This document shows, piece after piece, positions 18,496-34,701 of a DNA stretch of 38,365 nucleotides; positions within the stretch are counted from its first letter, which is position 1; each line of letters begins with the position of its first letter. The notes under the pieces were generated by a model. The model saw nothing but the letters and a program-made list of their open reading frames with translations, was not told where the DNA came from and did no database searches. The stretch comes from Coriobacteriales bacterium (lineage in GTDB: Bacteria > Actinomycetota > Coriobacteriia > Coriobacteriales > UMGS124). The translations under genes and the position numbers were made by a program. Location of the stretch: positions 1 to 38,365 of the forward strand of contig JAFWFL010000108.1 of NCBI GenBank assembly GCA_017515595.1, read 5' to 3'.

Positions 18496-19263
18496 TTAAT
18501 CTACCGTACCTTTCTTTATATGACATTCAATAGCGTTACTTTTACAAAATGCTCGAACTTGTTCTACTGCACTATAGTAAAACATATCAAGGTCCTTGTA
18601 AGCATTTGTACGTTTGTCATAGTGAGCGCGACCAAACACAATTCGGTTAGTAAAAGATATTGCATCAAGGATGGGCTGAAGCTCCTGCATATGTACATTT
18701 GGCGTCGGATAGGGCTCTATGCTAACCCACGTCTTTAAACCCGCATCGCTAAGCACCTTAAGTGCAGCAAGCCTGTTAATTAACGGTGCAGCACCTGGTT
18801 CCATCTCCTCACGAAAAGCTTCGTCAAGGGAAACAAGTGTGATGCCATACTGATTAATACCTGAAAGCTCAACAAGCTCCGTTGGAAGTACGCCCTTCGT
18901 CAGTACAACACAAGGAATACCGTACTCATTGATCAGCTTGATGGCGTCAATACTCATTTTACTGACTTCTGGATAGTCAACCATGAACGGATCAGTGGTA
19001 AAGCAAAGCTGTATGCGTTCGATTTCATTCTTGTGTTTAGGCAACTCCCTTCGAAGAAGGTCAAGGGTATTGTCAACGATGTACGGCTGTATCCACTCCT
19101 CATGCGTTTTAACTCGTCCGAATCGTCGTGCCATGAGGAAAGCATAACAGGGATACTGGCATCCATGTGAGCAACCCTGGACATGGTTCATTGCCCAATC
19201 ACCGTACTCGACCTTTGTCTGGTAGAGCATTGTCTTTCTGATAATGTGACCTAGGTGTCCCAT
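18496..19263 (-). CDS. Radical-SAM-like three-cysteine protein, TcmP partner
   Basis: 255 residues. Near the N-terminus GCSHGCQYPCYAF holds Cys31, Cys35 and Cys39 with CX3CX3C spacing, one residue longer than the canonical radical SAM CX3CX2C. Later blocks look like a radical SAM barrel of the SPL/elongated type: IQLCFTTDPFMVDYPE, YGIPCVVLTKGVL, YGITLVSLDEAFREEMEPGAA, LKTWVSIEPYPTP and RIVFGRAHYDKRT. Such proteins occur beside TcmP genes, which explains the name three-Cys-motif partner. Its reaction is unknown. The ATG at 19263 has GGAGA upstream; a GTG at 19290 is possible. It is the last gene of the minus-strand defence operon, 54 bp after TcmP. Confidence 0.75.
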   Translation of the reverse strand: MGHLGHIIRKTMLYQTKVEYGDWAMNHVQGCSHGCQYPCYAFLMARRFGRVKTHEEWIQPYIVDNTLDLLRRELPKHKNEIERIQLCFTTDPFMVDYPEVSKMSIDAIKLINEYGIPCVVLTKGVLPTELVELSGINQYGITLVSLDEAFREEMEPGAAPLINRLAALKVLSDAGLKTWVSIEPYPTPNVHMQELQPILDAISFTNRIVFGRAHYDKRTNAYKDLDMFYYSAVEQVRAFCKSNAIECHIKKGTVD

Positions 19264-19317
19264 CGTTCTCCAATAATGCCGTTTACCCACGTTTTCTCAA
19301 CCTAAAATAACGTCGCA

Positions 19318-20451
19318 TCACAAAGCCTTATTGCCTTCTAATAGCGGAAAGGTATATGTATCAGCCTTGAAGTTATTGCTTCGTTTGGTTGTTCCATCTT
19401 TCTTAACCTGACCCGCCTCAACCAATGGCTTGAGTACGTATGTAAGAACATGCGATGCTTTGAGCATCGTTTCCTCAAGGATGAAGGTCTTAATCCGAGC
19501 GAAGGGAACATTGCTTTGCCCCGAGAAAGCTTCGATCAAATCAGTCCTAGCGTCGTAGCTGTACTCAGCTGCGATAGAATCCTCGAACTCCGATTCTGCA
19601 AAGAGCGTTGTCTGCACACCTTCTGGCAGCCAAGAATTGCGATGGTACTGAGCCCCATGGAACACCTCCCAAAGTGCGTCTTTAAGCTTCTCTAGCCCCT
19701 TTTGGCTAGGCGTGACAAAAATAATTTGGTAAAGTTCCGCATTCATCCTGTTCTTGAAAGCATAACTGAACGCCAATTTCATTGGCTCGACCTTGAGCGC
19801 ATTGGCTATGGCACGTGCAGCATTCTTGTCCTGCGGAATATCAAGCCCATCAAAGCAATCGATAATTTCCTGATCGTTCTTGTTCCTGGTCAGGTCACTG
19901 GAGAACCAGTTGAACAGAATCTCGCTGTAGCGAGACCCAATAAAGTCCCTCATAGCGGTAAGGTGAACTGTCCGTGCGTTATATGGGTCGACAAAGAGAA
20001 GAACCGCGTTGCCGTATCCACCGGGAATTACGTTTGTTGTGGCAGCTCTATGCAAGAACTCGTTAACCTCGAGATCAGCCCAATACACCGTCACGTTCTT
20101 GCTTACTTCAGCAGCTAAGTACTCGCAGAGATTGCCACAAGTCTCGACTCGCCTCGTATCCTGGTCGTTGATGTAGAGATAGAAGTGAATAGAAGGATGT
20201 CGCTTTGCAAACGAGACAAAGAGCCTACTTACCGCGGCTGCGGTTCCAAGACCGCCATCCTCATATATGCCAGCATTGCACATCGCATCGATAAATGTAA
20301 TGCTCTTGATGGTTGGCTGGTTTACCCATACATGCAGCCATTTTTCTACATAAGAACGAACATAGGCGATTTTCTTGGTGGTCTGATCTTTCTTCCCCTC
20401 CAAGATGCTTATGTCAATGGCCAGCTCTTTGATGTAATCCATTTCGCTCAT
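19318..20451 (-). CDS. tcmP: Three-Cys-motif partner protein TcmP
   Basis: 377 residues. Family features are the opening block KKDQTTKKIAYVRSYVEKWL, FIDAMCNAGIYEDGG, where a methyltransferase-like glycine loop would be, and VLLFVDPYNARTVHL with a DPxx motif, followed by EILFNWFSSDLTRN. The C-terminal 100 residues resemble a winged helix (FARIKTFILEETMLKASHVL, then LVEAGQVKK). The methyltransferase-like core is inferred from these motifs; no activity is known for the family. It is encoded 15 bp after the restriction subunit Res and before the three-cysteine protein, so all are likely one transcript. The ribosome-binding site is weak, and Met4 is an alternative start. Confidence 0.82.
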   Translation of the reverse strand: MSEMDYIKELAIDISILEGKKDQTTKKIAYVRSYVEKWLHVWVNQPTIKSITFIDAMCNAGIYEDGGLGTAAAVSRLFVSFAKRHPSIHFYLYINDQDTRRVETCGNLCEYLAAEVSKNVTVYWADLEVNEFLHRAATTNVIPGGYGNAVLLFVDPYNARTVHLTAMRDFIGSRYSEILFNWFSSDLTRNKNDQEIIDCFDGLDIPQDKNAARAIANALKVEPMKLAFSYAFKNRMNAELYQIIFVTPSQKGLEKLKDALWEVFHGAQYHRNSWLPEGVQTTLFAESEFEDSIAAEYSYDARTDLIEAFSGQSNVPFARIKTFILEETMLKASHVLTYVLKPLVEAGQVKKDGTTKRSNNFKADTYTFPLLEGNKAL

Positions 20452-20466
20452 GTGCTTCTGGCTTTC

Positions 20467-23400
20467 TTAAATACTCACCGTGTGGTACGTAGTTCGCACA
20501 TCGTACTTCACATCCACCTGCAGCGCCTCGAAGTGCCGCCTGGCGCACCGAATCTTGGTCTTTTCAACATCACTCACGCGAATGTTGTTGTTCCCGCCGC
20601 CCTTGGTTTCCACAACAAAGTAAACGCGCCGCTCACCATCCTCCTCGACCACGTAAGCCCAGTCCGGGTTGTAGCTTCCTAGAGGAGTATCGATCTTGAA
20701 CTTGCTCGGCAACTTGGCGAAGACGCGCACCTCCTCTGCCAGGTCAAGCTCCACCGCAAATGGCTGCTCTACGGTTGACGAATCGTATACGACGTAGTTG
20801 TACAAGCTCTTTCCGCTGCTCGGCATCCAGGCGTTCTGCCCCAGGTACGCCTTCAACTCGCCAGGGTCGAGATCCTCCATGGTGTACCAGTCCTCGTCGG
20901 GCAGCTTCGTGTACTTGATGCCCTCCGCGATGGCCTCGCTCTTGGCCTTCTCGATCTTCTGCGCCACCTGCGCAAGGAACGTCGCCGGGTCTACCTCGAA
21001 CTCGTCGTAGCGCCCGCATTCCTCCAAGATGCGCTTGAGCGTAGAACGGGTCAGCCCCACGGCGTCCTGCAGCTCGGCAATTGGGTCGGGCAGATCGTAC
21101 ACACGAGCCTCACCCGTCTTTACAATTGATGTGCCGGTGGCCGTCGCGTACACACCCGCGTCACCCACGGCAAGGTCGGCACGCGTCGAAAGCACCTCGA
21201 GCGGCTTCACCTTCGGCATGCCTTTGACGAGCGCCACGGCATCGGCAATAAGCTTTTCCGAGTCCACGTCCACCTCGAAGCGCGTGCGCCTGCGTATGCG
21301 ATCCCACAGCTCCTGGAACGCGGGGTCATCGCTGACGTCCTTACGTAGCTCTACCTCGACTTCAGCAGCCTTGTCGCGAATCTGCAGCTTCTGAGCTTTA
21401 TGCAGGATGATATCCTCCACCTGCGAATGCGCAGCCTCAAGACCTGTTGGCATCTCCACGCAGCCCTTCTCGGCGGCTTCCTTCAGCTCGGGCGTAATGT
21501 TGCCCTTCTTGTCCACAAGCCCTTTGGACATGAAGCTCTGGTACACCTCAGCGCTCTGCTCGAAGCCAAGCTTCATCTCCTGGCCGTCTGGTAGCTCAAT
21601 GGTCACCTTTGTGAACGACTCGGGCGTGAGCACACCAAACTTCAACCCATCCTTCTCAAGCTCGGTTTGAAGCCCACTTGCGAAGACGTCGTAACTCTCA
21701 TTTGCGATGACGGTCAGTACGTTGGCGTCCTCGTCGTAGCAACGCTCGCCGGTCTGGTCGACGCACAGACGCAAGCCCCTGCCCACTTTCTGACGCTTGG
21801 TCATAGTGTCCTTGGTCTCCACCAACGTGCATATCTGGAATACGTTGGGATTATCCCAGCCCTCTTTAAGCGCCGAGTGAGACCAGATGAACTGGATACG
21901 CTTCTTGGCTCGAGTCTCTTCATCGTCCGTTGCAGAGGGGAACGATATAAGCGTCTCCTTTTCGCGCATGATGGTTTCAAACGTGTTGATATCGGCCTCG
22001 CTGCTGGCACTCGAGCTCGTGTTTTTGATGTGGCCCTTGCCATCCTGCGCGAAGTAGCCCGAATGCACAGCCGACGCATCAATATCGAGCGAAAGCCCTG
22101 CCGCCGCGTATTTCTTCTGCCAGCGGGAGCTGTTTACAGCATCGGAATACTCCCGCTCAAACATCTCTGCGTACTCTCCATTGCGCACCGGGTCATACAG
22201 GCGATACTTCTCAACCTTGTCGATGAAGAAGAGACTAAGTACCTTGATACCACGAGGCGTGAGCTCTAGCTGCCGTTGCAGGTGGTCCTCGATGGTGCGG
22301 CGGATCTGCGCACGTTTCACATCCTCGACGGACACATCGCCTACGGACTGGCCTTTTTCAAGGTATTCGCCGTTGGTGAACTCGATCCATTCATCGCCCT
22401 CGGCTGCCGATATGTTCGAAACGATCCATCCGGCCTCGTAGTCGCTGTTCTCGCCGCTCACTGTCTGATCATAAAGATTGCTTCCGGTACGCACGGTCAC
22501 GGACTTGCGCTTTTGGCTTCCGTCGCTTTGCCGCACATCAATCGTGAGCTTCGCAGTGATGGAACTTGGCGTGTTGCCCATCTTGGTCGATTCCAGCCGT
22601 ACGAAAGCGCCGTTTAGGTCGGCTTGTGCGAGAACAGAATCCACGCAAATGCCCTTCACGAGTCCTTGCTGAAAAGCGTCCACCGGCGTAAGGCGATACA
22701 CTTTGTTGTAACTCTCCTTGTGAGTTGCAGAGTAACGCAGCACGAAAAGCGGATTTAGACTGCGGATGGCGGCTTTCGCTTTGATACTGTTGTCGACGCT
22801 CTGCGGCTCGTCGATGATGACTATGGGGTTGCATGCCGCCACTACCTCGCGCGGGCTGCGGCCTCCGATAAGCCGCTCGCTCGGGCGGTGGAAGAGGGAG
22901 CTGCTCTCAGCATTGCCCTCGTCGGAGTAGTCGCGGTTGAACGCCTGGATGTTGATGATCATCACCTGGATGGAGCTGCTGGTGGCGAAGTTGCCAACCG
23001 GCCCCATGTCCTTGCTGTCGTAGACGAACACGTCCATCGGCGCGTTGTCGTAGAGCGTGGCGAAGTGCTTGCGCGTGCTCTGGAAGCTCTTCAGCACGCC
23101 CTCGCGGATGGCCACGCTCGGCACCACGATCAGGAACTTGGTGATTCCGTACTTCTTGTTCAGCTCGAAGATGGTGCGTGTGTACACGTAGGTCTTTCCC
23201 GTGCCAGTCTCCATCTCGATGGTAAAGTCGCGCAGCTTCCCGTCCGTCATCACGGCGGTGGCGGGAAGCGAGTTCTCCTCCTGGATGTCGTGCAGGTTCT
23301 CAAGCAGCTGGTTTGCCGAAAGGCGCAGTCCGTTGGCGTGTCCGATAGAGAGTACCTGCCCCTCCATCAGCGTTCCCGCAGCGCCCGTCTCGGCCGTGAA

Positions 23401-23505
23401 CTCGCTTTTAAGGAACTCCTGCCCCCGGAACAGTTCGGTGATGGCCTCGACGGCCTCTACTTGATGCTTCTGGTCCGATGAGTACTTGAGCTCGATGGTC
23501 GCCAT
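20467..23505 (-). CDS. res: Type III restriction enzyme, Res subunit (helicase-nuclease)
   Basis: 1012 residues. Walker A is METGTGKT (98-105), Walker B IIDEPQ (about 231-235), followed by LRYSATHKE (motif III-like) and the C-terminal helicase part SHSALKEGWDNPNVFQICTL and RQKVGRGLRLCVD. The end has a PD-(D/E)XK nuclease: YNPDWAYVV then YFVVETKG, where Asp and Glu-x-Lys would bind metal. Type III Res works in complex with Mod and cuts after ATP-driven communication between two sites. The gene begins 2 bp after the stop of mod. The length is normal for the family. No frameshift or loss of key residues is seen, so it is probably active. Confidence 0.93.
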   Translation of the reverse strand: MATIELKYSSDQKHQVEAVEAITELFRGQEFLKSEFTAETGAAGTLMEGQVLSIGHANGLRLSANQLLENLHDIQEENSLPATAVMTDGKLRDFTIEMETGTGKTYVYTRTIFELNKKYGITKFLIVVPSVAIREGVLKSFQSTRKHFATLYDNAPMDVFVYDSKDMGPVGNFATSSSIQVMIINIQAFNRDYSDEGNAESSSLFHRPSERLIGGRSPREVVAACNPIVIIDEPQSVDNSIKAKAAIRSLNPLFVLRYSATHKESYNKVYRLTPVDAFQQGLVKGICVDSVLAQADLNGAFVRLESTKMGNTPSSITAKLTIDVRQSDGSQKRKSVTVRTGSNLYDQTVSGENSDYEAGWIVSNISAAEGDEWIEFTNGEYLEKGQSVGDVSVEDVKRAQIRRTIEDHLQRQLELTPRGIKVLSLFFIDKVEKYRLYDPVRNGEYAEMFEREYSDAVNSSRWQKKYAAAGLSLDIDASAVHSGYFAQDGKGHIKNTSSSASSEADINTFETIMREKETLISFPSATDDEETRAKKRIQFIWSHSALKEGWDNPNVFQICTLVETKDTMTKRQKVGRGLRLCVDQTGERCYDEDANVLTVIANESYDVFASGLQTELEKDGLKFGVLTPESFTKVTIELPDGQEMKLGFEQSAEVYQSFMSKGLVDKKGNITPELKEAAEKGCVEMPTGLEAAHSQVEDIILHKAQKLQIRDKAAEVEVELRKDVSDDPAFQELWDRIRRRTRFEVDVDSEKLIADAVALVKGMPKVKPLEVLSTRADLAVGDAGVYATATGTSIVKTGEARVYDLPDPIAELQDAVGLTRSTLKRILEECGRYDEFEVDPATFLAQVAQKIEKAKSEAIAEGIKYTKLPDEDWYTMEDLDPGELKAYLGQNAWMPSSGKSLYNYVVYDSSTVEQPFAVELDLAEEVRVFAKLPSKFKIDTPLGSYNPDWAYVVEEDGERRVYFVVETKGGGNNNIRVSDVEKTKIRCARRHFEALQVDVKYDVRTTYHTVSI

Positions 23506-23507
23506 GG

Positions 23508-25328
23508 CTACACCGTCCTCAGCTCTACCTCGCGGCCAGTTTTCTCCTCGACGCGCTTGAACGCCTGTACGGCGTTGAGCTTGGTCGTATCATCGAGGTT
23601 GCGGTCGAGCATGAGCACGCGCCTGGGCTCCATGTCGGCGATGGCGTCGAGCACCTGCATGTTGAGGCCAGGCTCAAGGCAGCAGATGAGCTCACCGAAG
23701 GCCACCGAGTAGCACGAGTACCCGGCAGCATCCACCTTCTCGATGGGTAAGGTGAGCTCCAGGCCCCACTTGAGCATCATCTCGAAGATGATGTCCTCGT
23801 CAGTGCGGTCGGGCTTTACCACGTCGAGAAGGAGCTCGCCAGGTTTCGGGCGTTCAATGCCACTCTCATCGAGCTTGAGGACTCGGAAGCCAATATCGGG
23901 AATTTGCTTGGGTTCTTCGCCAAGTCGGAGTTGCCTATTCGCTTCTTCAACTTCAGCAGCAATCTTAGCTCCTGCGCGACGAATGCGTTCCGCACCCATA
24001 TCAAATAGGTTATTTCCATCATCTGTTGGTTCGGGGAGCTGGACTGCGATGTATCTGCGATGGCTATCCTCTCGTGCGTTAATGCTCATTACAGCTTCGG
24101 CGCTGCTGCCTGACCCAGCAAAAAAGTCCATTATTACGCTGTCGCTCTGTGAACCAATTTGCATGATGTAATCGATGAGTGCGGTTGGCTTTGGAGTGCT
24201 GAATAGGCTTGTGACAGCCACTTCTGGGAAAAGTGATTTGAGTTCGTATTTTGCGCGCCTAGTGTGACCAGTCTTTTCGAAGTCTGTCCACAGTGTAGAC
24301 GGTGGCAATCCTTCCATATCCGCCAAGTAAGTACGACGAATTACTCTTGTTTCGTCCTCAGAGAATCGTAATTCGCCCGTTTTAAATTTCTCATCCATGC
24401 TTTCGCGAGACCAACGCCACCCATTTGCTGGGTGCTTAATGATTTTGCCTGAGGGAGTTGTTATATCGAATTGAAGATTAGGTCGAAGTCCTGGGTTGTT
24501 TACCGGGTTACCGTCGAACCATGGCCCCCTTGGATCATTATCGGGATTCCGAAAATGCTTTCTCTTTTCGGGATCGTTGATGAAATTTGGCTTCCAAGAA
24601 GGATCGCGCGAATATACAAGGATGTCATTGAAATCTTCGGAGAATGTCAGCGCATTGTTATTGCTATTATCGCTGGATTGCCAAGCAACATGCGCTATAT
24701 AGCACGACTCTCCAAAAATCTCGTCACATATTTTTTTAAGGTTGGCCACCTCAACATGATCTATTGAAATGAAGAGTACTCCATCAGTTGAAAGGAGCTC
24801 GCGTGCAAGGCGTAGTCTCGGATAAATCATTGAGCACCAATTTGCATGGTATCTCCCACTAGCATCCGAGTTCGACTGTGACTCAGAAGAGGTTTGAGCG
24901 CGATAATTTGCGACCGTATCAGCAAAAGTGTCTTTATAGATAAAATCATGCCCTGTGTTATACGGTGGGTCGATAAAAATTAGATCGACGCGCCCGTGGT
25001 ATGAATGTTGAAGTAGCTTTAGTACCTCAAGATTGTCGCCCTCGATGTAAAGGTTTTCAGTCTCGTCCCAGTTCACGCTCTCGTCAGGAGCAGGTCGCAG
25101 TGTAGCCGTGCTAGGAGCCTGGCTCTGTCGGATGGCGTCGGCTTTACCAGGCCATGTGAAGGCGTAACGCTCGGTTCCTTCGTCCACCTCGTCGCCCAGT
25201 ACTAGACGGAGCTTGTCAAAGTCGATGCCCCCCTCAGTTGCGATCTCCGGCAGCAGTTGTTTAAGCTGCTCGATGCGTTCAGCCACCAGATCGGCAGACG
25301 CAAGATTCATCTTCTTGAACTCAGCCAT
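23508..25328 (-). CDS. mod: Type III DNA methyltransferase, Mod subunit
   Basis: 606 residues. DPPYNTG (120-126) is the catalytic motif IV and FAGSGSS (from 403) the SAM-binding motif I, so the order is that of beta-class amino-methyltransferases; adenine N6 methylation is expected. The target-recognition part lies between them (about 150-390). That part of the gene has visibly lower G+C than both ends, suggesting exchange of the recognition domain. The gene overlaps the DUF4391 gene by 8 bases and is 2 bp from res. The product should both protect host DNA and give the site specificity for Res. Confidence 0.93.
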   Translation of the reverse strand: MAEFKKMNLASADLVAERIEQLKQLLPEIATEGGIDFDKLRLVLGDEVDEGTERYAFTWPGKADAIRQSQAPSTATLRPAPDESVNWDETENLYIEGDNLEVLKLLQHSYHGRVDLIFIDPPYNTGHDFIYKDTFADTVANYRAQTSSESQSNSDASGRYHANWCSMIYPRLRLARELLSTDGVLFISIDHVEVANLKKICDEIFGESCYIAHVAWQSSDNSNNNALTFSEDFNDILVYSRDPSWKPNFINDPEKRKHFRNPDNDPRGPWFDGNPVNNPGLRPNLQFDITTPSGKIIKHPANGWRWSRESMDEKFKTGELRFSEDETRVIRRTYLADMEGLPPSTLWTDFEKTGHTRRAKYELKSLFPEVAVTSLFSTPKPTALIDYIMQIGSQSDSVIMDFFAGSGSSAEAVMSINAREDSHRRYIAVQLPEPTDDGNNLFDMGAERIRRAGAKIAAEVEEANRQLRLGEEPKQIPDIGFRVLKLDESGIERPKPGELLLDVVKPDRTDEDIIFEMMLKWGLELTLPIEKVDAAGYSCYSVAFGELICCLEPGLNMQVLDAIADMEPRRVLMLDRNLDDTTKLNAVQAFKRVEEKTGREVELRTV

Positions 25329-26094
25329 GGCATAGCTCCTTTATCTCGGTCGCGAACCTGTCATGCTCGCGTTCCTTCCTCTTCAACGCCATACGCAGCC
25401 GTGACGACTCGGCAAGGGTCGCCTCTTTATCACGATACTGCGACTGTAGGACATTAATCTCCGATTGTGTGTCCCTCAGATGGACCAGAAGCGCCATCAA
25501 TTGCGCCGTATCGGCATCTTTGCAATGTGGATACTCGCCGATGCTGGCGATAGCTGCCGCCTTGGCCGTGCGGTCGCAGAGCGCACAAACGTAGGCAAGC
25601 AGGTCGGATTGTGGTAGCGCCCCATGTCGGATGTCTTCCAGGTAGTCGGCAAACGCTTGCTGGCTCGGGTCGAAGAGCCGCGCAGACTCGATGCGCTCCA
25701 CGACAACAGCGCCCTTCTCCGCATGGCTCTTGCGCTTGAGAGACACGGAGACGCCCACCTTGCCGCCCGGCTCTTCGAAGAGCAGCACGATCGGGTTGGG
25801 GAACACCTTGTGGAGCGCGGATGCAAGCTCGCCGAACCCTCCGGATTTTACCAATTCGCAGCGCAGGTAAATCACGCTGCCTATCTCATACTCAGAATTT
25901 AAGACGGGAGCGATTCGTGCCGTCGCACGCTGGATGGTGGCGATATGCGTCAGGCGCGAGTACTGCTTGAGCAGCTTCTCCTCGGTCTTGGTGAGACCGC
26001 CCTGGGCGATGAGAACCGTCTTGGGAATGGGCTTGCCCCCGGCGAGCGTGGCGTTCGGAAGGTTTAGCGTCGCGATCCAGTCCATTCCAGTCAC
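25321..26094 (-). CDS. DUF4391 family protein
   Basis: 257 residues. The pattern (IPKTVLIAQGGLTKTEEKLL, then ARIAPVLNSEYEIGSVIYLRCEL, and VVVERIESARLF) matches my recollection of DUF4391 proteins, which are commonly encoded between a PLD/SNF2-type helicase and a type III mod gene. The C-terminal 60 residues are charged and heptad-like (SEINVLQSQYRDKEATLAES), probably a coiled coil. Function is unknown; given its fixed position it may link the helicase to the modification-restriction complex. It overlaps the upstream gene by 4 bases (ATGA type) and the downstream gene by 8. Met4 is an alternative start. Confidence 0.75.
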   Translation of the reverse strand: MTGMDWIATLNLPNATLAGGKPIPKTVLIAQGGLTKTEEKLLKQYSRLTHIATIQRATARIAPVLNSEYEIGSVIYLRCELVKSGGFGELASALHKVFPNPIVLLFEEPGGKVGVSVSLKRKSHAEKGAVVVERIESARLFDPSQQAFADYLEDIRHGALPQSDLLAYVCALCDRTAKAAAIASIGEYPHCKDADTAQLMALLVHLRDTQSEINVLQSQYRDKEATLAESSRLRMALKRKEREHDRFATEIKELCHG

Positions 26095-29000
26095 CTCAGC
26101 ACCACGAAGCTCACGAGCGAGTAGTCGTCGAATGCGAGAGTCGTGCCGGTGCCGACTTCACCCAAACTGAAGAGCGATTCCATGCCCTTCTGCGCCTGTA
26201 CACCCGAAACCTGGCTCACGGCGGCGTCGAGCAGCTCGGTGTAGCCGCCCATGCGCGTTCCGTCTCGCGTCTCGCGGTTGAACTGCTGGCACAGCTCCAT
26301 GACGGGTTCCGTTATTCCTGCGCAAGCGGCGCGGATGATGTCGAGGGCGGTTTTCGGGTTGGTGTGGGTGCCTCGTACCTCTCCAGCCTGCGTCACGTAG
26401 ATCAGGTGGAACGGCCAGGTCGGGTTGCCGTCCTTCGGGTTGGCTTCCTCGTCGTTTGCCTTCAGGCAGAATACGACGCCAGGCTCGACGCTGTCCTGCA
26501 GGGTGTCCGGTATCTCGGCTACGGCATGCAGACCGCAGGGACTTCCCTCCAATAGGCAGGGGTGGGCTTTGGCGTAACGCTCCAGCTCCACGCGGAAGTC
26601 GTCGTAGGCCAGGTCGGTGATGGAAATGCCGCCCGATATGTCCTCCAGGTCCATGACCTCGCGCTGTAGCTGCTCGAGCTGGCTTCTGCGGTACTTCAGG
26701 TCGTTCATCTCGTCGGCAGCCTTGCCCTCGAGCACGTTCTCCTCGCCGGTGGCCGACGTGTCCAGCAATACCATGCGCCCCTTCACACGTCCTTCGAGCT
26801 GGATGTACTCGTCAAGCTCGATGTCTGGCCAGAAGTTCACGAGCTGCACGCACGTGTTGTCGGAACCCAGACGGTCCACGCGGCCGAACCGCTGGATGAT
26901 TCGCACCGGGTTCCAGTGGATGTCGTAGTTCACCAGGCAGTCGCAGTCCTGCAGGTTCTGGCCCTCGGATATGCAGTCGGTTGCGAACACGACGTCAATC
27001 TCGCCCTGTTTGCGCTCACGTTCGGATATCTCCTTGCTCTTGGGCGAGAACCGTCCCAACACGGCGTCGAAGGTAGTGCGCTTGAGCTTTATGGTGGCGG
27101 ACGTGCCGGCCGCTCCAGTCACGAGGGCGCTCTCCATGCCGTACGTCTTCTTGAGGTGGGGCGATAGCTGATCGTAAAGGTAGCGGACCGTATCGGCGAA
27201 CGCGCTGAAGATGAGCAGCTTGCGGTTGTCGGGGTTGTACGGGTGGGCGACCTTCTGGTCGATGAAGCGACGAAGCTCGGCCAGCTTCTCGTCGCGCTCG
27301 GGCGTCACCTCGTTGGCGTAGTAGAGAAGCTCCTCGAGCGTGCGGATGTCGTATTCCAGCTCCTGGCGCACGCGTATCGCGTCCACGTCGCGAAGGTCTA
27401 CGCGCACCTTGCCGCCGGCCTCGAACTCCTCGGCGTCGTCATCGTCGTCGAATCCCTCTGCCAGGTCGTCCGCCTCGTAGGTAGCGTTCATGCTCAGGTT
27501 GTCCAGCTGCTCCAGCAGTGTTTTCGCGCCGCCCAGCACGCGCTCCAGGGTGATGCGAAAGCTGTTGATGGAGCTCTCCATGCGCTTAAGCAGGTTCACT
27601 CGCATCAGGTTCGCAACGGCGTGCGTGCGGTTCACCTGGCTCTCGTAGTCATTGCCCCACGTATCGGCGTAGAGAGCCTCGTACTTCTTCTGCTTTCCGG
27701 GCATGACGTAGGACAGCAACTGGTACTGCGCGAAAGACAGCGACGCGATGAGGTCGTTCATGTCGGCGATGCTCGGTAGCTCGTCCTGCGTGTCGAAGCG
27801 TGGGTGCAGCGATATGGGCTTCAACCTCGTCGGGAACGTGGCCTTCTCGTCGCGATAGTACTTCGCGATGTGCTTGCGCGACCGCGCGATGGTTAGGATG
27901 TCGAGAAGCTTGAAGTAGTCGGCGTTCACCATGGCCACGAACCGCTCGGTGGTCCTCGCCTCGTCGGGAAGCTCGCTCCATTCCCCGAACCGCTGCTGGG
28001 CCAGACGGCAGACGGCCGTGATGGAACCGATGCCGTCGGTGTCAGCCAAGTAGGCGTCGTCTCCCTCGGTGATGATCTCTATCTGGTTGCGCAGGTCGAG
28101 CAGCTTGTTATTAACCGGCGTAGCCGATAGCATGAGCACCTTCGTGCGTACACCGGCGCGTATAATGTCCTGCATCAGGCGGTCGTATCGCGAGTGCTGC
28201 GTGCGGTCGGTCGGCTTGTTGCGGAAGTTGTGGCTCTCGTCGATGACGATGAGGTCGTAGTTGCCCCAGCGCAGCGTCTCCAGGTTGATGTCGCCCGAGA
28301 AACCCGTGTAGCGGGAAAGGTCGGTGTGGTTGAGCACGTCGTAGTTCAGCCGGTCGTCCACGAGGGGGTTGCGCTCGTCGTTGCCGGTGTAGAGCGTCCA
28401 GTTCTCGCGAAGGCGCTTCGGGCACAGCACCAGCACGCGGTCGTTTCGCTCCTGGTAGTACTTGATGACGGCCAGTGCCTCGAAGGTCTTGCCCAGGCCA
28501 ACCGAGTCAGCGATGATGCAGCCCTTGTAACGCTCCAGCTTGCGGATGGCTCCCACCACGGCGTCACGCTGGAAGTCGTAGAGTTTGTTCCACACATGGC
28601 TATCGGTGAAGGAAAGCCCCGGCTTGATGGGGTCGGTCGCCTCGATATCGGCCATGAAATCCCTAAAAACGTGATACAGCGTAAGGAAGTACACAAACTC
28701 AGGGGGGTTCTCACGATACAGCGTTACGATTTGTGCAGCAACCTCCTCGGTAACTTCGGTTACCATGGAAGGATTATCCCAGATGCTGTCGAACATAGCC
28801 TTAAGTCCAGCCGCCTCGGAAGAACCCGAATAGGAGCCATATCCGCCCACAACGCCGGCACGACGCTCATATCCCAGCCCTTCCAACGTAAATGGAAGGT
28901 TGAACCCCTGGAAACCATCAGCACTACCATCAGCATGCGAAAGGTGGTACACCGAGCCCGACTGAACTATATTGCACTTGGTTGCTGAGCGGAATGAGGC

Positions 29001-29339
29001 CTTGGATCGCACCCACTCGGCGCACTCGTGTGCCAGTGCTCGTTGGTTTAAGTTGTTTCGAAGTGTTAACTCAAGCCCTGTGCCACCCACACCACGCTCC
29101 CGTGAACGCTGCGATATCACAAATTCGCGTGGATCTTTCAAGTCGGTCATCTGTTGAATAAATGTTGGCTCATCAAAGAGAAAGCGGAGCTCTTGAATGT
29201 GGGAAAGCTCGCTCTTCAACTCGCCGTAAGCGAATACGGTGAAATACGACGAAATTATGGCAAGCCTATCGCCTTCCATAATTGCCGAACGAAGCTTGTC
29301 TCCTAAAGCGTTGACACCCTCGTTAGATAAGAACTCCAT
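26091..29339 (-). CDS. PLD/SNF2-type helicase of a defence operon
   Basis: 1082 residues. The first 200 residues look like a phospholipase D-like domain (GDRLAIISSYFTVFAYGEL, RFLFDEPTF) without a clear HKD. The SNF2-type helicase core follows: ADSVGLGKT (Walker A, Lys284), VIDESHNF (367-370 DESH), LMLSATPVNN, and in the second half KLLIFSAFADTVRYL, ATDCISEGQNLQDC and RIIQRFGRVDRLGS. The last 200 residues have no recognised fold. It probably translocates on or remodels DNA in the restriction system. The first 250 residues' DNA is lower in G+C than the rest. It starts 4 bp after the small leader gene and overlaps the DUF4391 gene by 4 bases. Confidence 0.88.
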   Translation of the reverse strand: MEFLSNEGVNALGDKLRSAIMEGDRLAIISSYFTVFAYGELKSELSHIQELRFLFDEPTFIQQMTDLKDPREFVISQRSRERGVGGTGLELTLRNNLNQRALAHECAEWVRSKASFRSATKCNIVQSGSVYHLSHADGSADGFQGFNLPFTLEGLGYERRAGVVGGYGSYSGSSEAAGLKAMFDSIWDNPSMVTEVTEEVAAQIVTLYRENPPEFVYFLTLYHVFRDFMADIEATDPIKPGLSFTDSHVWNKLYDFQRDAVVGAIRKLERYKGCIIADSVGLGKTFEALAVIKYYQERNDRVLVLCPKRLRENWTLYTGNDERNPLVDDRLNYDVLNHTDLSRYTGFSGDINLETLRWGNYDLIVIDESHNFRNKPTDRTQHSRYDRLMQDIIRAGVRTKVLMLSATPVNNKLLDLRNQIEIITEGDDAYLADTDGIGSITAVCRLAQQRFGEWSELPDEARTTERFVAMVNADYFKLLDILTIARSRKHIAKYYRDEKATFPTRLKPISLHPRFDTQDELPSIADMNDLIASLSFAQYQLLSYVMPGKQKKYEALYADTWGNDYESQVNRTHAVANLMRVNLLKRMESSINSFRITLERVLGGAKTLLEQLDNLSMNATYEADDLAEGFDDDDDAEEFEAGGKVRVDLRDVDAIRVRQELEYDIRTLEELLYYANEVTPERDEKLAELRRFIDQKVAHPYNPDNRKLLIFSAFADTVRYLYDQLSPHLKKTYGMESALVTGAAGTSATIKLKRTTFDAVLGRFSPKSKEISERERKQGEIDVVFATDCISEGQNLQDCDCLVNYDIHWNPVRIIQRFGRVDRLGSDNTCVQLVNFWPDIELDEYIQLEGRVKGRMVLLDTSATGEENVLEGKAADEMNDLKYRRSQLEQLQREVMDLEDISGGISITDLAYDDFRVELERYAKAHPCLLEGSPCGLHAVAEIPDTLQDSVEPGVVFCLKANDEEANPKDGNPTWPFHLIYVTQAGEVRGTHTNPKTALDIIRAACAGITEPVMELCQQFNRETRDGTRMGGYTELLDAAVSQVSGVQAQKGMESLFSLGEVGTGTTLAFDDYSLVSFVVLR

Positions 29340-29343
29340 ACGC

Positions 29344-29547
29344 TTAGCCCTTCTTGGAAAGATTATTAATCATAGCCTGCTTCACGAGCAAATCGCAAGT
29401 GAGTCCCGAAGTAAAGAACGCTTGTTTTGCTGAGACGCGATGATTCTTAGGGATGCACAATGCGACAGATACATCAGCACCATCCATAAGAAATTCTTGG
29501 ATCTCGGTAGTGAAAGATCTAGAATCGCTGAAGTCCGAATACTTCAT
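29344..29547 (-). CDS. Small 67-residue leader protein of the defence operon
   Basis: 67 residues (MKYSDFSDSRSFTTEIQEFL start). No family is recognised. It is likely real because GGAGAG lies 6 bases before the ATG and its stop codon is 4 bp before the helicase start, as expected of a coupled operon gene. The predicted protein is soluble, with a hydrophobic middle (ADVSVALCI) and a basic end. It could be a regulator or toxin-like partner, but nothing in the sequence decides. It is the first gene of the seven-gene minus-strand unit. Confidence 0.6.
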   Translation of the reverse strand: MKYSDFSDSRSFTTEIQEFLMDGADVSVALCIPKNHRVSAKQAFFTSGLTCDLLVKQAMINNLSKKG

Positions 29548-30230
29548 TGCCGGCTCTCCATAGAATGCAAGTTCAATATAACAAACACAACTATATCAGA
29601 GTGCAAAGACCCTTTCAATAGCCGGTAAACAAGCAGCGGTCTTGAACAATTCAGGTAACCTGAACTGCACTATGAGGTCTTAACATGTGGTTAACCTTTT
29701 TAGAAAAGAAAACTTATAAATCCACAGTGTAAGATAATTGTTCGAATCATACATTTCTTACACTCAAATAGGTTTTGCCGCCATTCCTGGCTGACGATTC
29801 GGCTGAGTATACTAAGATTCATTTGGAGCAATCTGCTTCGGTAAATAACTCTATGTTGTTAGGATACCAAATATGTTATCCAAACGAATGCCAAAAGAGT
29901 TGGATTTACAACGCAGATTTCCAATGCCACCAAAAACTATGATCAATATCTATATTGTAGAAATATTAATAATCGTGCTTTATCATCCATTATTACAGCT
30001 CAGTAAGTCGCGAAAATATTGACATAACTTTATGACAAAACACTTAACGATTGTATTATGATCATAATAAAATTTAAAATATGACGATTCATGGATACTC
30101 GACAATCAAGAAGCTGTTAAAACATCTTGACTCAAAATAATGTATTAAATAAGCTAAGCGTTGTAGTTTTGGATAGGATGTTTGTGATATTAACGTTTTG
30201 ATCTATATACACAGCAGTAAAAGGTGCACT
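29548..30230. other. AT-rich divergent intergenic region
   Basis: About 680 bp, no convincing gene. It separates the two divergent defence regions and should hold both promoters. TTCAGGTAACCTGAA (29650-29664) is a perfect 7+1+7 palindrome about 100 bp upstream of the leader gene and may be an operator. TTGACT at 30127 resembles a -35 box, but no well spaced -10 follows. Confidence 0.6.
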
Positions 30231-31238
30231 ATGGCTTCTGTCACTCAAAGAATCAAAGAAATAAAACAACCAAGAGGCGGATATTTAAACCTAAAAATGT
30301 TTACCAAGACAGTACTTGGACCGGGTGAAGAGGAGCTAAAACAAACTGATTTCCAATCCGGTCTGACCGGACTAGCTGTTGATTACCTTACGAGATTTAT
30401 GCTCGGAACACCAGTTAAAACTGCATTCAGAATATCCATATTAGGAGCCGAAAGACTCTCTTGGGATAATAATATAAACACAGCAGATACCGTTTCTTTG
30501 CTATTAAAGAATATTAAGGGATTGGATGATAACTCCATTATCTCGGCTTGCAAAATGTGTGGTTATGATACCTGTTTAAGAGCTGGAATTGGAACCTATA
30601 AACCTATTGAAGAGATAGAGCCAGATGATGGCGCTATTGAAAACATAAGGATCATGGTAAATAGAAGCCTGGCGTTTTTTGAACAATATGGCCCTGTCAC
30701 ATGTGTATGTCCAGTTTTCCATGGTGGGTATGCCAAACTTGTTGATTCAGGAGATGGTGATTATCTTACAAAAGATACTATCTGGGACATGAAAGTGTCA
30801 AAAAAACCGCCAAAAAGTAGCGACAGACTGCAAATACTCATGTATTACATATTAGGTAAACACTCATTCAGAATAGAATTCGATACAGTGTACAAGATTG
30901 GCATTTATAATGCTCGCTTGAACACAGTCTATTTACTTGACGTGAACGATATAGACCGTGCAGTAATTCATGAGGTTGAATACGACGTAATCGGATATCA
31001 AACATGTACACACCACAATACAGAGATAGTTACACGGAACACTGCAGCTGATGAATACATTTATGAGCAGTATGTAAATCATATTAAGGAACAACTTAAA
31101 TATCGTAATAATACGCAGTCTGAGGACTTATCTAATGATCAGCCAAACGATGGTCAGATTGTTTCAAAACCAACAAAATCAATATTCAGATCAATATTAG
31201 ACTTCTTTGCAAAAGCTTTTCATTTAACAAAGTTATAG
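30231..31238 (+). CDS. PD-(D/E)XK nuclease-like protein
   Basis: 335 residues. The central block DSGDGDYLTKDTIWDMKVSK (from Asp172) supplies an acidic residue then Asp-x-Lys (Asp186, Lys188), and LQILMYYILG fits the QxxxY helix of RecB-like PD-(D/E)XK enzymes. The N-terminal half is unrecognised; cysteines occur as CKMCGYDTC and CVC. The ATG at 30231 is chosen because AAGGTG precedes it; a TTG start at 30198 is less likely. Codon use is AT-rich compared with the molybdoenzyme island. It is encoded just before the McrBC genes in the same direction, with a 120-bp gap that holds a promoter, so a joint role is possible but not shown. Confidence 0.6.
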   Translation: MASVTQRIKEIKQPRGGYLNLKMFTKTVLGPGEEELKQTDFQSGLTGLAVDYLTRFMLGTPVKTAFRISILGAERLSWDNNINTADTVSLLLKNIKGLDDNSIISACKMCGYDTCLRAGIGTYKPIEEIEPDDGAIENIRIMVNRSLAFFEQYGPVTCVCPVFHGGYAKLVDSGDGDYLTKDTIWDMKVSKKPPKSSDRLQILMYYILGKHSFRIEFDTVYKIGIYNARLNTVYLLDVNDIDRAVIHEVEYDVIGYQTCTHHNTEIVTRNTAADEYIYEQYVNHIKEQLKYRNNTQSEDLSNDQPNDGQIVSKPTKSIFRSILDFFAKAFHLTKL

Positions 31239-31291
31239 TTCTTTTAGCTATTTTATCTCATGAGAGCTCTGCGGATATTTCAGGTACCTCG

Positions 31292-31300
31292 TGATATACT
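31292..31300 (+). promoter_or_regulatory. Extended -10 promoter of the mcrBC operon
   Basis: TGATATACT is an extended -10 (TGnTATACT), 61 bases before the chosen mcrB start. No good -35 is evident, which is tolerable with an extended -10. Confidence 0.45.
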
Positions 31301-31361
31301 AAAGATCATATACATGGGGCTTAAAGTTCATCTCACAGAATAAATGGAACGGTGCATAAAC

Positions 31362-34300
31362 ATGAGCGAAGACAAATTCAGTTGGATACCAGCTTACGAG
31401 GCGATAGCCACCGTACTACTTGACTATCAAGAGCGACAAGATGATCTTTGCAATCTTGTCGAAAGCATCATTGGCGAACATTTCGAGAAGATGGATCCGC
31501 TCACTTTTTTCTCTGTGTTCAATGGTAAGCGTAAAAACTATGATAAACGCATAGAGGCGGTCAGAGCAATCATTGATTGGTTTGACCTAGATGTAGCCGT
31601 TCCCTCTGATTTTTATGGAATACCGGTCACCAACCCACAACGTTGGCGGTTCTGGGATGGCAAGCCCGACTCCGTCCGTCATAACTGGGAGCTCTTCCGT
31701 ACAGCTTTGGATTATGCGAAAGATAAGGACGCAGTTCGCTTAGAGTTCATGCGTCTCTTTGATGTTGTTCGTTCACAAGGAAACGTTGGCGATGCCAATC
31801 TTACTATGGCGCTCTTTTGGATACGGCCACACATCTTTCTCCCCGTGGACAACAACACGAGAACCTACCTCAGGAACCGTTACGACATCACGGTACCCAT
31901 ACCACTTAATGGCGACGGTTATCTCACGCTGCTCTCAGATGTTCGAGAAAGATCACAGGAAGACTTTGTATACATTTCGCATGCGGCCTGGGAACTTAAC
32001 GGATGGATTCCCGCTCCAAGCGAATACAACCCTGGCATTACTGCTGATGAATGGGAGGAGCTACTTCGAAGACCGGGATTCACATCTGAGAATACTCTCA
32101 CTACATTACGATGCCTCGCCAATCATCCCAAAGGCGTAACCTGCGCGGAGCTGGATGATGACTATGGACGCGGCTCGAACTTCTACAACAGCAACGTTTC
32201 AACATGGGGCGAGGCAGTCTGCAAGAGTACGGGCATCGCGCCTCGCGACATCGAGGGTAGTGGAAAGTATTGGCCCGTACTCTGTGTAGGAAACTGTGTT
32301 GGCAAATCCAGGCATGGAACCTTCGAGTGGCGATTACGTGACGAGCTGGCCGAGGCAGTAAAAAGGCTGGGGAAAGGTGATGTGCCGCTTGTTGAGGTAG
32401 AAGTACGTGAGCGAGTTGCATACAACTCTGACAAACTTGCCCGACTTGTCTCACTTTACAAACAGGACTTCCCCCGTTTCCGTGTGCCGGGTAGCAATGA
32501 GGGCGATCAAGAGGTATATAAGTGGGAAAACGCTTGTGCCTACAAAGACAACTGGAACATAGAGGCCAAGGATTTCGCGTCAAACTTACGCGAGGCTTTA
32601 AAACCTGCGTCAACCAGCCCTGGCGCACTCTTGGACAATGGTTTTTCATATCCGTTTGGGCGGCTAAACAAGCTGGTCGAATTCGACCCGGAAGGCATTC
32701 GCAGCGCATTTAAAATACTTTACGATCCAGAACGACCACTGCGCGACGCTTACAATGGATTCGTTGACACGGTAGAGTCTATATTACAGGAGTATAACGA
32801 AACAGCTGAAAAACCAATTGAAAACAGTTATCAGACTCCTTCTGCCGTGAGTGTTTACCTTGCGTTTGAAAAACCCGAACAGTACCACATTTTTAAACCA
32901 ACAGTCGGAACTGCTCTTGCTGAGTGCATCGGCGCAAAGCTGCCTGCCGACAAAGTGGCAAAATTACTCACTTACGAAAAACTTGCTGATGCTGTATTAC
33001 CCCAATTGCTCGCTGACAAAGACCTTGTAGCAATGAGTGATAGTGCGTTGAGTGAGGCACAACTCGATGTCGATCCTGCACATCACTTGATGCTTGAGGA
33101 TATTGCCTACTATGCATCGCGATATCTCAAATCGTGGCACACTGATTGGGAAGAGTTACTTTCTGGCAAACCGGCAGAACCTGGTAATGAGATAATGAGT
33201 GAGAGTGTTACTTACCCCAAGAATATGATTTTATACGGACCACCGGGTACCGGCAAGACCTACCGTACTCGTGCGTATGCCGTTGCCATCTGCGATGGCC
33301 GCCGTGTCGAAGACGTTCTGGAGGCTATGAAGAATCCTGATGGATACGCTGAAGTATCTGAGCGATATGACCAACTTGTCGCCCAAGGACGAGTGGGTTT
33401 TACAACATTTCATCAGTCATATGGCTACGAAGAATTTATCGAGGGACTGCGGCCTGAGTACGATGAAGATAAGGGCGTAGTTACCTATCCTCTACGCAAA
33501 GGTGCTTTTCGTGATTTCTGCGAGGCTGCTGAGGATGTAATAGCAATTGCATCAGCCGAAGAAGGTGTACCGCGTTTTCCGGGTAACCCGCGCCCTCGTG
33601 TGTGGAAAATGGGTCTTAAAACCGGTGAAATCACAAATTTGTTGGAGTGTTGTCGCAACGAAGGAACGCTGCGTATGGGATGGGACAGCATTACTCCGGA
33701 TGAGGTTGATGATTCCAAAGATATATCAGACCAAAACAAGAGAGCCATAAATGCATTCCAAGAGGAGATGCAGCCCGGCGACTTTGTTGTAATCCCAGGT
33801 GCCGTGAGCAGTCGATACGATGTTGCCGTGGTAACCGGCGATTTCGAATGGGACGAGGACTTGCCAGGTGCTAGACGTAAGAGAACAGCTCAGTGGCTTG
33901 ACGGAATAAGCAAGAGCGAATTTCTGCCTCTCAATGATGGAAAGGCCTTGACGCTACAGACTGTTTATGAGCTAACGCGCGTGAGTCCATCAAGGCTGCT
34001 TGAAGCAATGGGCATGAGAGTCGAGGAAAAGACCACTAAACCCTATGTCTTTATTATCGACGAAATCAACAGAGGCAATGTTTCTAAGATTTTTGGAGAG
34101 TTGATTACCCTGCTTGAGCCAAGTAAACGAAAAGGCGCTCCCGAAGAGACGCTTGCGCGACTTCCGTATTCTGGAGAGATGTTTGGAGTACCAGATAACG
34201 TTTACATACTTGGTACCATGAATACTGCTGATCGCTCTATAGCGCTTATGGATACGGCTTTACGCAGACGCTTCGAATTCATAGAGATCATGCCAGAATC

Positions 34301-34697
34301 AAAATTACTCTCAGATATCAATGTTGAAGGAATTGATGTTGCTCGAATGCTCGAAGTAATGAACGCTCGTATTGAGTTGCTTTATGACCGCGAACACACC
34401 CTGGGCCATGCTTATCTAATGGATTTAGTGAAAGAATCTTCTGTGGAACGGCTTGCCAGAGTGTTCGAAACAAGACTCATACCGCTTCTGCAGGAATACT
34501 TCTTCGATGACTACGCCAAAATACGCTCTATTTTGGGAGCCGCTGCAGACCTCTTCATCGAGCAGCGTGAGGCTAACAATGTATTTTGGGGAGATGACGC
34601 TGCCGAATACGATCGTCTACGCTCCTACCGCATACTACAAGCACCTAGAGATGCCGAGGCGTACATAAATATTTATAAGATGGGTCGGGAGGACTAA
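31362..34697 (+). CDS. mcrB: McrB-type AAA+ restriction NTPase with a nested EVE-like domain
   Basis: 1111 residues. The AAA+ core has Walker A GPPGTGKT (626-633), the McrB-typical TTFHQSYGYEEFIEGLRP, Walker B VFIIDEINRGN (from 896), MNTADRS (953-959) and LRRRFEF. Between Walker A and B, at about 746-860, lies an extra domain beginning RVWKMGLKTGE, with LRMGWDSI, MQPGDFVVIPGA, VAVVTGDFEW and TAQWLDGI; this looks like a PUA/EVE-type reader of modified bases found in other restriction proteins. The N-terminal 600 residues include a probable DNA-recognition part (WIRPHIFLPVDNNTRTYL; GEAVCKSTGI). McrB homologues drive translocation by GTP or ATP hydrolysis together with McrC. The start at 31362 is chosen over 31344 because GGTG lies 7 bases before it. 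The stop is 4 bp before mcrC. Confidence 0.88.
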   Translation: MSEDKFSWIPAYEAIATVLLDYQERQDDLCNLVESIIGEHFEKMDPLTFFSVFNGKRKNYDKRIEAVRAIIDWFDLDVAVPSDFYGIPVTNPQRWRFWDGKPDSVRHNWELFRTALDYAKDKDAVRLEFMRLFDVVRSQGNVGDANLTMALFWIRPHIFLPVDNNTRTYLRNRYDITVPIPLNGDGYLTLLSDVRERSQEDFVYISHAAWELNGWIPAPSEYNPGITADEWEELLRRPGFTSENTLTTLRCLANHPKGVTCAELDDDYGRGSNFYNSNVSTWGEAVCKSTGIAPRDIEGSGKYWPVLCVGNCVGKSRHGTFEWRLRDELAEAVKRLGKGDVPLVEVEVRERVAYNSDKLARLVSLYKQDFPRFRVPGSNEGDQEVYKWENACAYKDNWNIEAKDFASNLREALKPASTSPGALLDNGFSYPFGRLNKLVEFDPEGIRSAFKILYDPERPLRDAYNGFVDTVESILQEYNETAEKPIENSYQTPSAVSVYLAFEKPEQYHIFKPTVGTALAECIGAKLPADKVAKLLTYEKLADAVLPQLLADKDLVAMSDSALSEAQLDVDPAHHLMLEDIAYYASRYLKSWHTDWEELLSGKPAEPGNEIMSESVTYPKNMILYGPPGTGKTYRTRAYAVAICDGRRVEDVLEAMKNPDGYAEVSERYDQLVAQGRVGFTTFHQSYGYEEFIEGLRPEYDEDKGVVTYPLRKGAFRDFCEAAEDVIAIASAEEGVPRFPGNPRPRVWKMGLKTGEITNLLECCRNEGTLRMGWDSITPDEVDDSKDISDQNKRAINAFQEEMQPGDFVVIPGAVSSRYDVAVVTGDFEWDEDLPGARRKRTAQWLDGISKSEFLPLNDGKALTLQTVYELTRVSPSRLLEAMGMRVEEKTTKPYVFIIDEINRGNVSKIFGELITLLEPSKRKGAPEETLARLPYSGEMFGVPDNVYILGTMNTADRSIALMDTALRRRFEFIEIMPESKLLSDINVEGIDVARMLEVMNARIELLYDREHTLGHAYLMDLVKESSVERLARVFETRLIPLLQEYFFDDYAKIRSILGAAADLFIEQREANNVFWGDDAAEYDRLRSYRILQAPRDAEAYINIYKMGRED

Positions 34698-34701
34698 GAA
34701 T

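Follow-up and report, generated by a model that had tools for sequence, protein, structure and literature searches.

The closest described counterpart of the gene pair discussed here is PDC-M30 of the PADLOC database, which joins TcmP with a DUF5131-like protein and is a candidate from a guilt-by-embedding approach (PMC10855318, available in part). In the accessible part of that source, PDC-M30 was predicted in 32 strains of a 100-strain Pseudomonas aeruginosa panel, and 68.8% of these 32 strains were phage resistant. A comparable two-gene pair, consisting of TcmP and a three-cysteine radical S-adenosylmethionine (SAM)-like protein (rSAM), closes a type III-like restriction operon of a Coriobacteriales bacterium. 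It lies on contig JAFWFL010000108.1 (assembly GCA_017515595.1), the whole of which, 38,365 bases from a 3.3 Mb draft genome, was analysed and is called the window. The window TcmP scores 91.9 bits against TIGR04474 (cut-off 53) and matches PDC-M30A at 1.2e-22. Its partner differs from that of PDC-M30, as it falls below the DUF5131 (PF07505) cut-off (23.0 vs 28.9 bits), matches PDC-M30B only weakly (2.6e-4; PDC-M41B, 6.6e-5), and has its cysteines spaced as CX3CX3C instead of the DUF5131-type CX3CX2C.

The operon itself resembles type III restriction-modification (R-M) systems in its Mod, an N6_N4_Mtase protein with a hypervariable stretch, and its Res, with ResIII and PF19778; together, the two hold the methylase, helicase, and endonuclease domains of such a system. 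It differs from them in adding an SNF2 helicase, a DUF4391 protein, a ribbon-helix-helix (RHH)-like gene, and the tail module. PrrC in EcoprrI and other R-M guardians offer a precedent for accessory genes within restriction loci (PMC12707154, available in part), but PrrC, which accompanies a type IC system, is an anticodon nuclease, whereas the window pair combines a methylase fold with a radical SAM protein and accompanies several R-M types. In a Sinorhizobium meliloti expression table from the accessible part of PMC12445080, the TcmP gene SMa2243 is listed beside hna (SMa2245), a defence helicase gene, and in that of PMC10853773, radical SAM is mentioned for DndC only; PMC5512222 contains none of six terms looked for in it. 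A literature search, with most subscription papers and all bioRxiv-only preprints outside its scope, found no pairing of TcmP and rSAM with R-M operons, a single paper on DUF4391, nothing on DUF5131, and nothing on the combined operon terms. No R-M system is known to include a radical SAM component. The recurrence of the pair in operons of unrelated R-M types points to a shared need, for example, countering phage base modification or guarding restriction. The pair, which comprises two genes only, accompanies restriction genes of very different classes and therefore looks like a plug-in second defence tool.

The reading favoured here, with a probability of about 0.5, is that TcmP and rSAM form an autonomous, nucleic-acid-modifying second defence layer stacked on restriction operons. 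The locus would then combine a type III-like restriction operon with a mobile module of two genes that stands apart at its tail. The pair would most likely work as one nucleic-acid-modifying enzyme, in which TcmP would choose and hold the target and the conserved rSAM subunit would perform radical chemistry on a base, without dependence on the recognition sequence of Mod. Selection would repeatedly place it in one operon with a restriction system of some type, and it would profit from expression shared with restriction. An autonomous defence enzyme is the simplest explanation because the pair appears to be a separate module, sits in a tail position used by defence genes, accompanies several restriction types in either order, occurs on chromosomes and viral contigs, and seems indifferent to the Mod site. 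The genes and their motifs, the predicted folds, the limits of the module, the exchange of partners, and the non-random co-operonic placement are observations; catalysis, a nucleic-acid target, and a role in defence are inferred.

Five genes, encoding the RHH-like protein, SNF2 helicase, DUF4391 protein, Mod, and Res, form a recurrent type III-like cassette. Matches to Res are present in 66 of 296 genomes of the class, and its 20 nearest relatives besides the window (63–92% identity, nearly full length) were fetched, each fetched locus being labelled with "L" and a number. Many of these 20 loci also have the helicase, DUF4391, Mod, and Res. TcmP and rSAM were found beside Res in none of the 20, with the limit that a pair lying farther away would escape on the short contigs (L087, 4.8 kb; L075, 8.4 kb; L078, 9.1 kb; L084, 9.8 kb); this rules out the pair as a fixed part of the helicase-DUF4391-Mod-Res cassette. 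By blastn, homology between the window and L071 runs from 29612 to 20466, up to the Res stop, and the blocks with L072 and L073 stop at 20474, at or near the Res stop codon, with TcmP beginning 15 bp behind Res. Because these blocks end near the Res stop and other genes stand there in relatives (Table 1, with Pfam results for 8 of the 20 loci), the pair occupies a variable tail position. No same-strand gene lies directly behind Res in L089.

From the helicase on, L111 (Coriobacteriaceae metagenome-assembled genome RUG13846) and the rumen viral contig L191 repeat the window arrangement, L111 with a gene for a YhcG nuclease in addition; in both, the fetched stretch starts inside the helicase gene. 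In L179, the pair is ahead of a related cassette with a 39% identical Res. At the DNA level, L112 and the window have nothing but the rSAM stretch in common; the gene in front of the L112 TcmP is a type I HsdR, where the window has a type III Res. To judge from these alignments, TcmP and rSAM are a separate module with its own sharp boundaries and history. The two genes can also part company. Pairwise comparison of 110 loci gave a median TcmP identity of 26–27% where rSAM is 55–80% identical, and rSAM and TcmP identities are 96% and 29% for L173/L177, 91% and 27% for L111/L112, and 81% and 22% for window/L112. TcmP is thus exchangeable under a nearly identical rSAM, with occasional wholesale swaps, which yields a clear hypothesis on the subunit that determines the target. 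L111 and L191 are 94% identical in Res, 92% in rSAM, and 55% in TcmP; along most of the L111 TcmP, identity at the DNA level is 54–63%, with the better conserved Res and rSAM on either side. A generally fast-diversifying TcmP, in the manner of a target-recognition domain, was rejected, as TcmP identity largely tracks that of rSAM while Mod drops in 13 loci with two TcmP genes. Between L124, from Faecalicatena faecalis, and L137, for instance, identity is 69% for Mod, 95% for Res, 98% and 96% for the TcmPs, and 95% for rSAM. Exceptions are L124/L130 (first TcmP 84%, rSAM 93%, Res 95%) and L156/L163 (rSAM 97%, TcmP 73%, Res 47%).

These comparisons also bear on the target of the pair. Identity in the Mod hypervariable stretch is about 40–60% among the window, L111, and L191, and the blastn blocks of most relatives skip it. 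The L073 block does not: one block (25348..20474, 80%) keeps the window Mod target stretch in a locus from which the pair is absent. As the Mod target domain changes while TcmP stays, the target of the pair would therefore not follow the Mod recognition site, which argues against a pair serving that site. It is accordingly improbable that the pair installs or reads a self-mark of the window restriction system. Such a role would fit the shared operon, the tight spacing, the methyltransferase-like TcmP, and the divergence of the window, L111, and L191 in both Mod target domain and TcmP, but the pair is missing from all 20 close cassette relatives, Mod changes its target domain under a constant TcmP, L073 retains the target stretch alone, and the type IV partners described below carry no self-mark.

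The predicted structures point to nucleic acid. The TcmP model (pLDDT 85.2) has its best solved folds in RlmJ, the 23S rRNA A2030 N6-methyltransferase, and the DUF519 relative of RlmJ (Z 15.1–16.6; next entry 13.6), at about 10% identity to RlmJ. TcmP differs in an extra C-terminal part (residues 286–377), hardly covered by these matches, which gives a sub-threshold Pfam match to GMT-like wHTH (16.9 bits vs 27). D55, G61, D155, and P156 are invariant in an alignment of 29 TcmPs, which is consistent with, but no proof of, a working methylase. Motif IV of RlmJ and N6-adenine methylases reads [DNS]PP[YFW] (DPP[YF] for RlmJ); TcmP has DPY.

The rSAM protein matches Radical_SAM (PF04055) at 36.6 bits, above the gathering score of 29.5, and its model (pLDDT 88.8) matches solved radical SAM enzymes. 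Spore photoproduct lyase is the best of these (Z 19.9, root-mean-square deviation 3.6, 242 aligned residues, about 15% identity), followed by pyruvate formate-lyase activating enzyme and SuiB (Z 15.3) and viperin (Z 15.2). The canonical radical SAM spacing is CX3CX2C, with known variants; in rSAM, CX3CX3C is invariant in two alignments, and CX3CX3C[YF] is found in 121 of 122 rSAM open reading frames (ORFs) of at least 240 aa. TcmP was seen with two kinds of radical partner, the DUF5131 type with CX3CX2C (L022–L025, L027) and the window clade with CX3CX3C. Searches with the TcmP and rSAM profiles against the sequences of solved structures returned nothing useful; as the rSAM profile found no PDB chain at E 0.1, the likeness to spore photoproduct lyase is a fold match only, and the window protein departs from this enzyme in its CX3CX3C spacing and its TcmP partner. 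Since RlmJ and spore photoproduct lyase, the best fold matches, both act on nucleic acid and it is TcmP that is exchanged, the chemistry is probably performed on a nucleic-acid base.

The placement of the pair was surveyed with a window-clade rSAM profile, which matched 463 stretches in genome contigs (the best 80 of the 463 were used, not a random draw) and 30 loci in viral contigs. Altogether, 130 loci were examined; 123 carry a window-clade rSAM and form 91 clusters at 90% identity, referred to as dereplicated loci. TcmP is in the same operon as rSAM in 84 of the 91, with genes called by a greedy longest-ORF script and operons defined as same-strand genes with gaps of at most 250 bp. Restriction-labelled genes occur in 34/91 pair operons versus 9/149 other operons of the same loci (Fisher p 1.5e-9), on labels that rely on similarity to representatives chosen partly among pair neighbours, are thereby biased toward such neighbours, and include methylases, SNF2 helicases, and two by-eye labels (L142). 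Among operons uncut by a contig end, the count is 21/61. In 9 dereplicated loci, a labelled gene immediately precedes TcmP (gaps −8 to 45 bp); in 21, one immediately follows rSAM.

A Pfam test free of this label bias compared 71 pair operons, each represented by its largest non-pair protein, with 82 proteins from randomly chosen other operons of the same loci (71 of 72 and 82 of 83 proteins were given, and the window was left out of both sets). ResIII was found in 21/71 of the former and at most 1/82 of the latter (Fisher p 2e-7, taking 1; "at most 1" reflects its absence from the 25 families listed). In two genome samples unranked by similarity, drawn from the family (299 genomes) and the class (391 genomes) of the L137 genome, itself a carrier, rSAM occurs in 16 distinct genomes. 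By the restriction labels described above, 10 of these 16 have a restriction gene within the contiguous gene neighbourhood. Those without one are L222, L224 (3.9-kb contig), L226, L228, L230 (a methylase-like gene on the opposite strand being left uncounted), and L235. In the 299 genomes from the family of L137, a Blautia locus, rSAM is just upstream of 6/7 full-length copies of Res_b, the Res of a second type III lineage (5/6 without the query); two further family genomes have Res_b fragments without rSAM. A non-random placement of the pair relative to restriction genes is, thus, supported.

The partners are diverse. Pfam supports type III partners of more than one lineage in the same gene run (window, L029, L156, L207), type ISP (L037, L161), MmeI-type IIL (L036), and Eco57I-type (L160, L115) partners, and type I partners, with HsdR in L112 and HsdM plus HsdR in L229 and L227. 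Type IV partners are GmrSD (L146, L194, L195) and McrBC (L211, L225). A wider view, offered tentatively, is that TcmP and rSAM are a general companion of type I–IV restriction: a two-component radical base-modifying enzyme, with a swappable TcmP target subunit on a conserved radical subunit, that would hinder restriction evasion. Separately, PADLOC mad2, of the MADS system, matches 8/71 partner proteins, and some partners may belong to MADS-like systems.

The range of partners also helps to weigh two further explanations. In the first, the pair would remove or rewrite protective modifications of phage DNA bases, so that restriction can work. Spore photoproduct lyase reverses a base lesion, repairing spore photoproduct in DNA, and its match stands clear of the rest (Z 19.9 vs 15.3); independence of the Mod site would suit such a generic role, as would partners of several restriction types. 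This explanation is nevertheless rather doubtful, as McrBC (L211, L225) and GmrSD (L194, L195) require modified DNA. In the second, by analogy with PrrC and EcoprrI, the pair would be a back-up abortive effector, silenced by the intact restriction enzyme and modifying tRNA or rRNA once a phage blocks restriction. The best fold match of TcmP is an rRNA methylase, the pair is tightly coupled to restriction genes, and an AAA_13 ATPase, from the family that includes PrrC and RloC, lies behind Res in L097, a more distant cassette relative (Res 38%). One guard would, however, have to sense type I, ISP, IIL, Eco57I-type, III, and IV enzymes alike, and a labelled restriction gene is missing from the operon in most dereplicated loci (see below), which makes this explanation unlikely, if worth keeping in mind.

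Several observations weigh against the favoured reading of an autonomous second defence layer. In 57/91 dereplicated loci, the operon has no labelled restriction gene, and only 17 of these 57 operons are cut by a contig end; the pair must, therefore, also act without a restriction gene or with one elsewhere. Singly, Eco57I (7/71 vs 4/82) and N6_Mtase (5/71 vs 3/82) differ little between pair operons and controls. Other defence neighbours occur, such as TIR plus AAA_21 in L230 and AAA_15 in L226, as plain defence-island clustering would give. Among the Res_b carriers in the 391 class genomes, only 1/8, the query left out, has the pair beside it; the idea that the pair is obligatory in that type III lineage was, therefore, rejected, and it is optional there. 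Phage markers, identified by eye, lie near 12/91 dereplicated loci. Lastly, neither the DPY motif nor the CX3CX3C spacing is textbook, and catalysis is, thus, not assured. Chance insertion behind Res of two genes from a phage or mobile element would account for the module boundaries, the phage markers, the viral contigs, and the operons lacking a labelled restriction gene. The odds of such a chance landing are nonetheless poor, since the same arrangement recurs in L111 and L191 and restriction partners are in excess in both gene orders, by which this explanation is already weakened.

Of the two roles proposed in the sequence-only reading of the locus, a second defence layer is, thus, the better supported, because the tail position holds other defence genes in relatives and because of the type IV companions; no site-specific link (L124/L137, L073) was found for the other, in which the pair adds or reads a modification used by restriction. 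That reading had also considered that TcmP pairs might be placed at random or be an unrelated insertion. Random placement is contradicted by the survey of pairs next to restriction genes, which it had called for and which gave an excess in operons as well as many operons without such a gene, while a separate module with its own boundaries and history, absent beside the close Res relatives, agrees with the alignments.

Regarding spread, TIGR04474 matches occur in 20/296 genomes of the class, including that of the window, and an rSAM locus is also present on Collinsella sp. BA40 contig NZ_VOWY01000012.1. Among annotated phages, relatives are few: two records reach at least 80% coverage (56.5% and 28.8% identity), and one fragment matches at 64%; annotated plasmids gave no relative above 28.8%.

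In the window, all seven tightly spaced minus-strand ORFs of the sequence-only reading were found at its coordinates, with the gaps and overlaps it had listed (Table 1). From the 67-aa gene to rSAM, the spacing is gap 4, overlap 4, overlap 8, gap 2, gap 15, and gap 27 bases, which supports its proposal of a single operon. Profiles bore out Mod, Res, DUF4391, TcmP, the SNF2 helicase, and the three-cysteine radical-SAM-like protein, and the helicase-DUF4391-Mod-Res order was rightly called recurrent. The PLD part of the helicase was not recovered, as no PLD profile matches it; an HKD/PLD part relies on PADLOC C3a139 (residues 173–1080). The rSAM start is GTG, with an in-frame ATG 27 bases further in. 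The promoter-like site ahead of the operon is weak, with 15 such sites in the region vs 10.2 (sd 3.1) in shuffles.

Table 1. Features of the operon in the window (positions in bases) and genes behind Res in relatives of its cassette
Feature	Location	Strand	Basis or content
Promoter-like site TTGAAA-17-TATAGT, TG before second hexamer	29590..29618	minus	10/12 consensus matches
67-aa small protein, first cassette gene	29344..29547	minus	no family; tblastn relatives
SNF2-type helicase (PADLOC C3a139 HKD+Snf2)	26091..29339	minus	SNF2-rel_dom and Helicase_C profiles, PADLOC
DUF4391 protein	25321..26094	minus	PF14335 7.9e-22
Type III-like Mod methyltransferase	23508..25328	minus	PF01555 (N6_N4_Mtase) 2.3e-29; PADLOC MTase_III 2.2e-178
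Hypervariable stretch in Mod, probable target-recognition domain	23990..24820	minus	identity drop, skipped blastn blocks
Type III-like Res: ResIII helicase and PF19778 endonuclease	20467..23505	minus	Pfam, PADLOC
TcmP: RlmJ-like class I methyltransferase fold and mostly helical C-terminal part	19318..20451	minus	TIGR04474, predicted fold
TcmP D155-P156-Y157, methyltransferase motif IV position	19981..19989	minus	alignment
Radical SAM protein (rSAM), spore-photoproduct-lyase-like fold	18496..19290	minus	PF04055, predicted fold
CX3CX3C cluster motif, C40/C44/C48 of rSAM	19147..19173	minus	alignments
Gene(s) behind Res	L073		GmrSD
Gene(s) behind Res	L075		OLD-like ATPase and UvrD helicase, as in Gabija
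Gene(s) behind Res	L088		SMODS cyclase, as in CBASS
Gene(s) behind Res	L086		AbiH
Gene(s) behind Res	L074		endonuclease/exonuclease/phosphatase
Gene(s) behind Res	L077		AAA_21 protein
Gene(s) behind Res	L079		DUF4238
Gene(s) behind Res	L071		667-aa protein, no family

On the plus strand, at 30198–36012, the window carries divergent genes for a PDC-S61 homologue (2.1e-102), a McrB-like AAA protein, and McrC, and the locus is, therefore, a defence island. The 67-aa ORF found no family in profile searches. It is probably a real gene, because similar ORFs occur in cassette relatives (tblastn, 39–63% identity, 10 loci at E < 1e-6, L066 and L095 being one and the same site, and 6 at E < 1e-9). By eye, its product is RHH-like and a probable autoregulator; the window copy deviates, again by eye, from the common core of its relatives and is perhaps a decaying regulator. 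In several of the relatives L079–L086, a DUF4238-kind gene (Pfam was run on L079 only) lies 1 bp behind Res and is followed by varying genes.

Tandem TcmP genes (about 379 and 289 aa) stand ahead of one rSAM in L114, L124, L130, L137, L147, and 8 other loci; in most, Mod-Res come next, and a short helix-turn-helix-like ORF (by eye) precedes some. Genes that look PolA-like and DUF2815-like by eye are near the pair in L137, L149, L195, L197, L199, L207, L211, and L217, where it is probably in a prophage replication region. One gene family is found near the pair in 14 loci, mostly upstream on the opposite strand (including L124, L137, L180, L195, L197, L199, L203, L207, and L217), and its 684-aa member in L180 has an IrrE-like M78 peptidase domain. 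Finally, pieces of TcmP and rSAM are spread over several short frames at L040:794-2369, where the pair has probably decayed.

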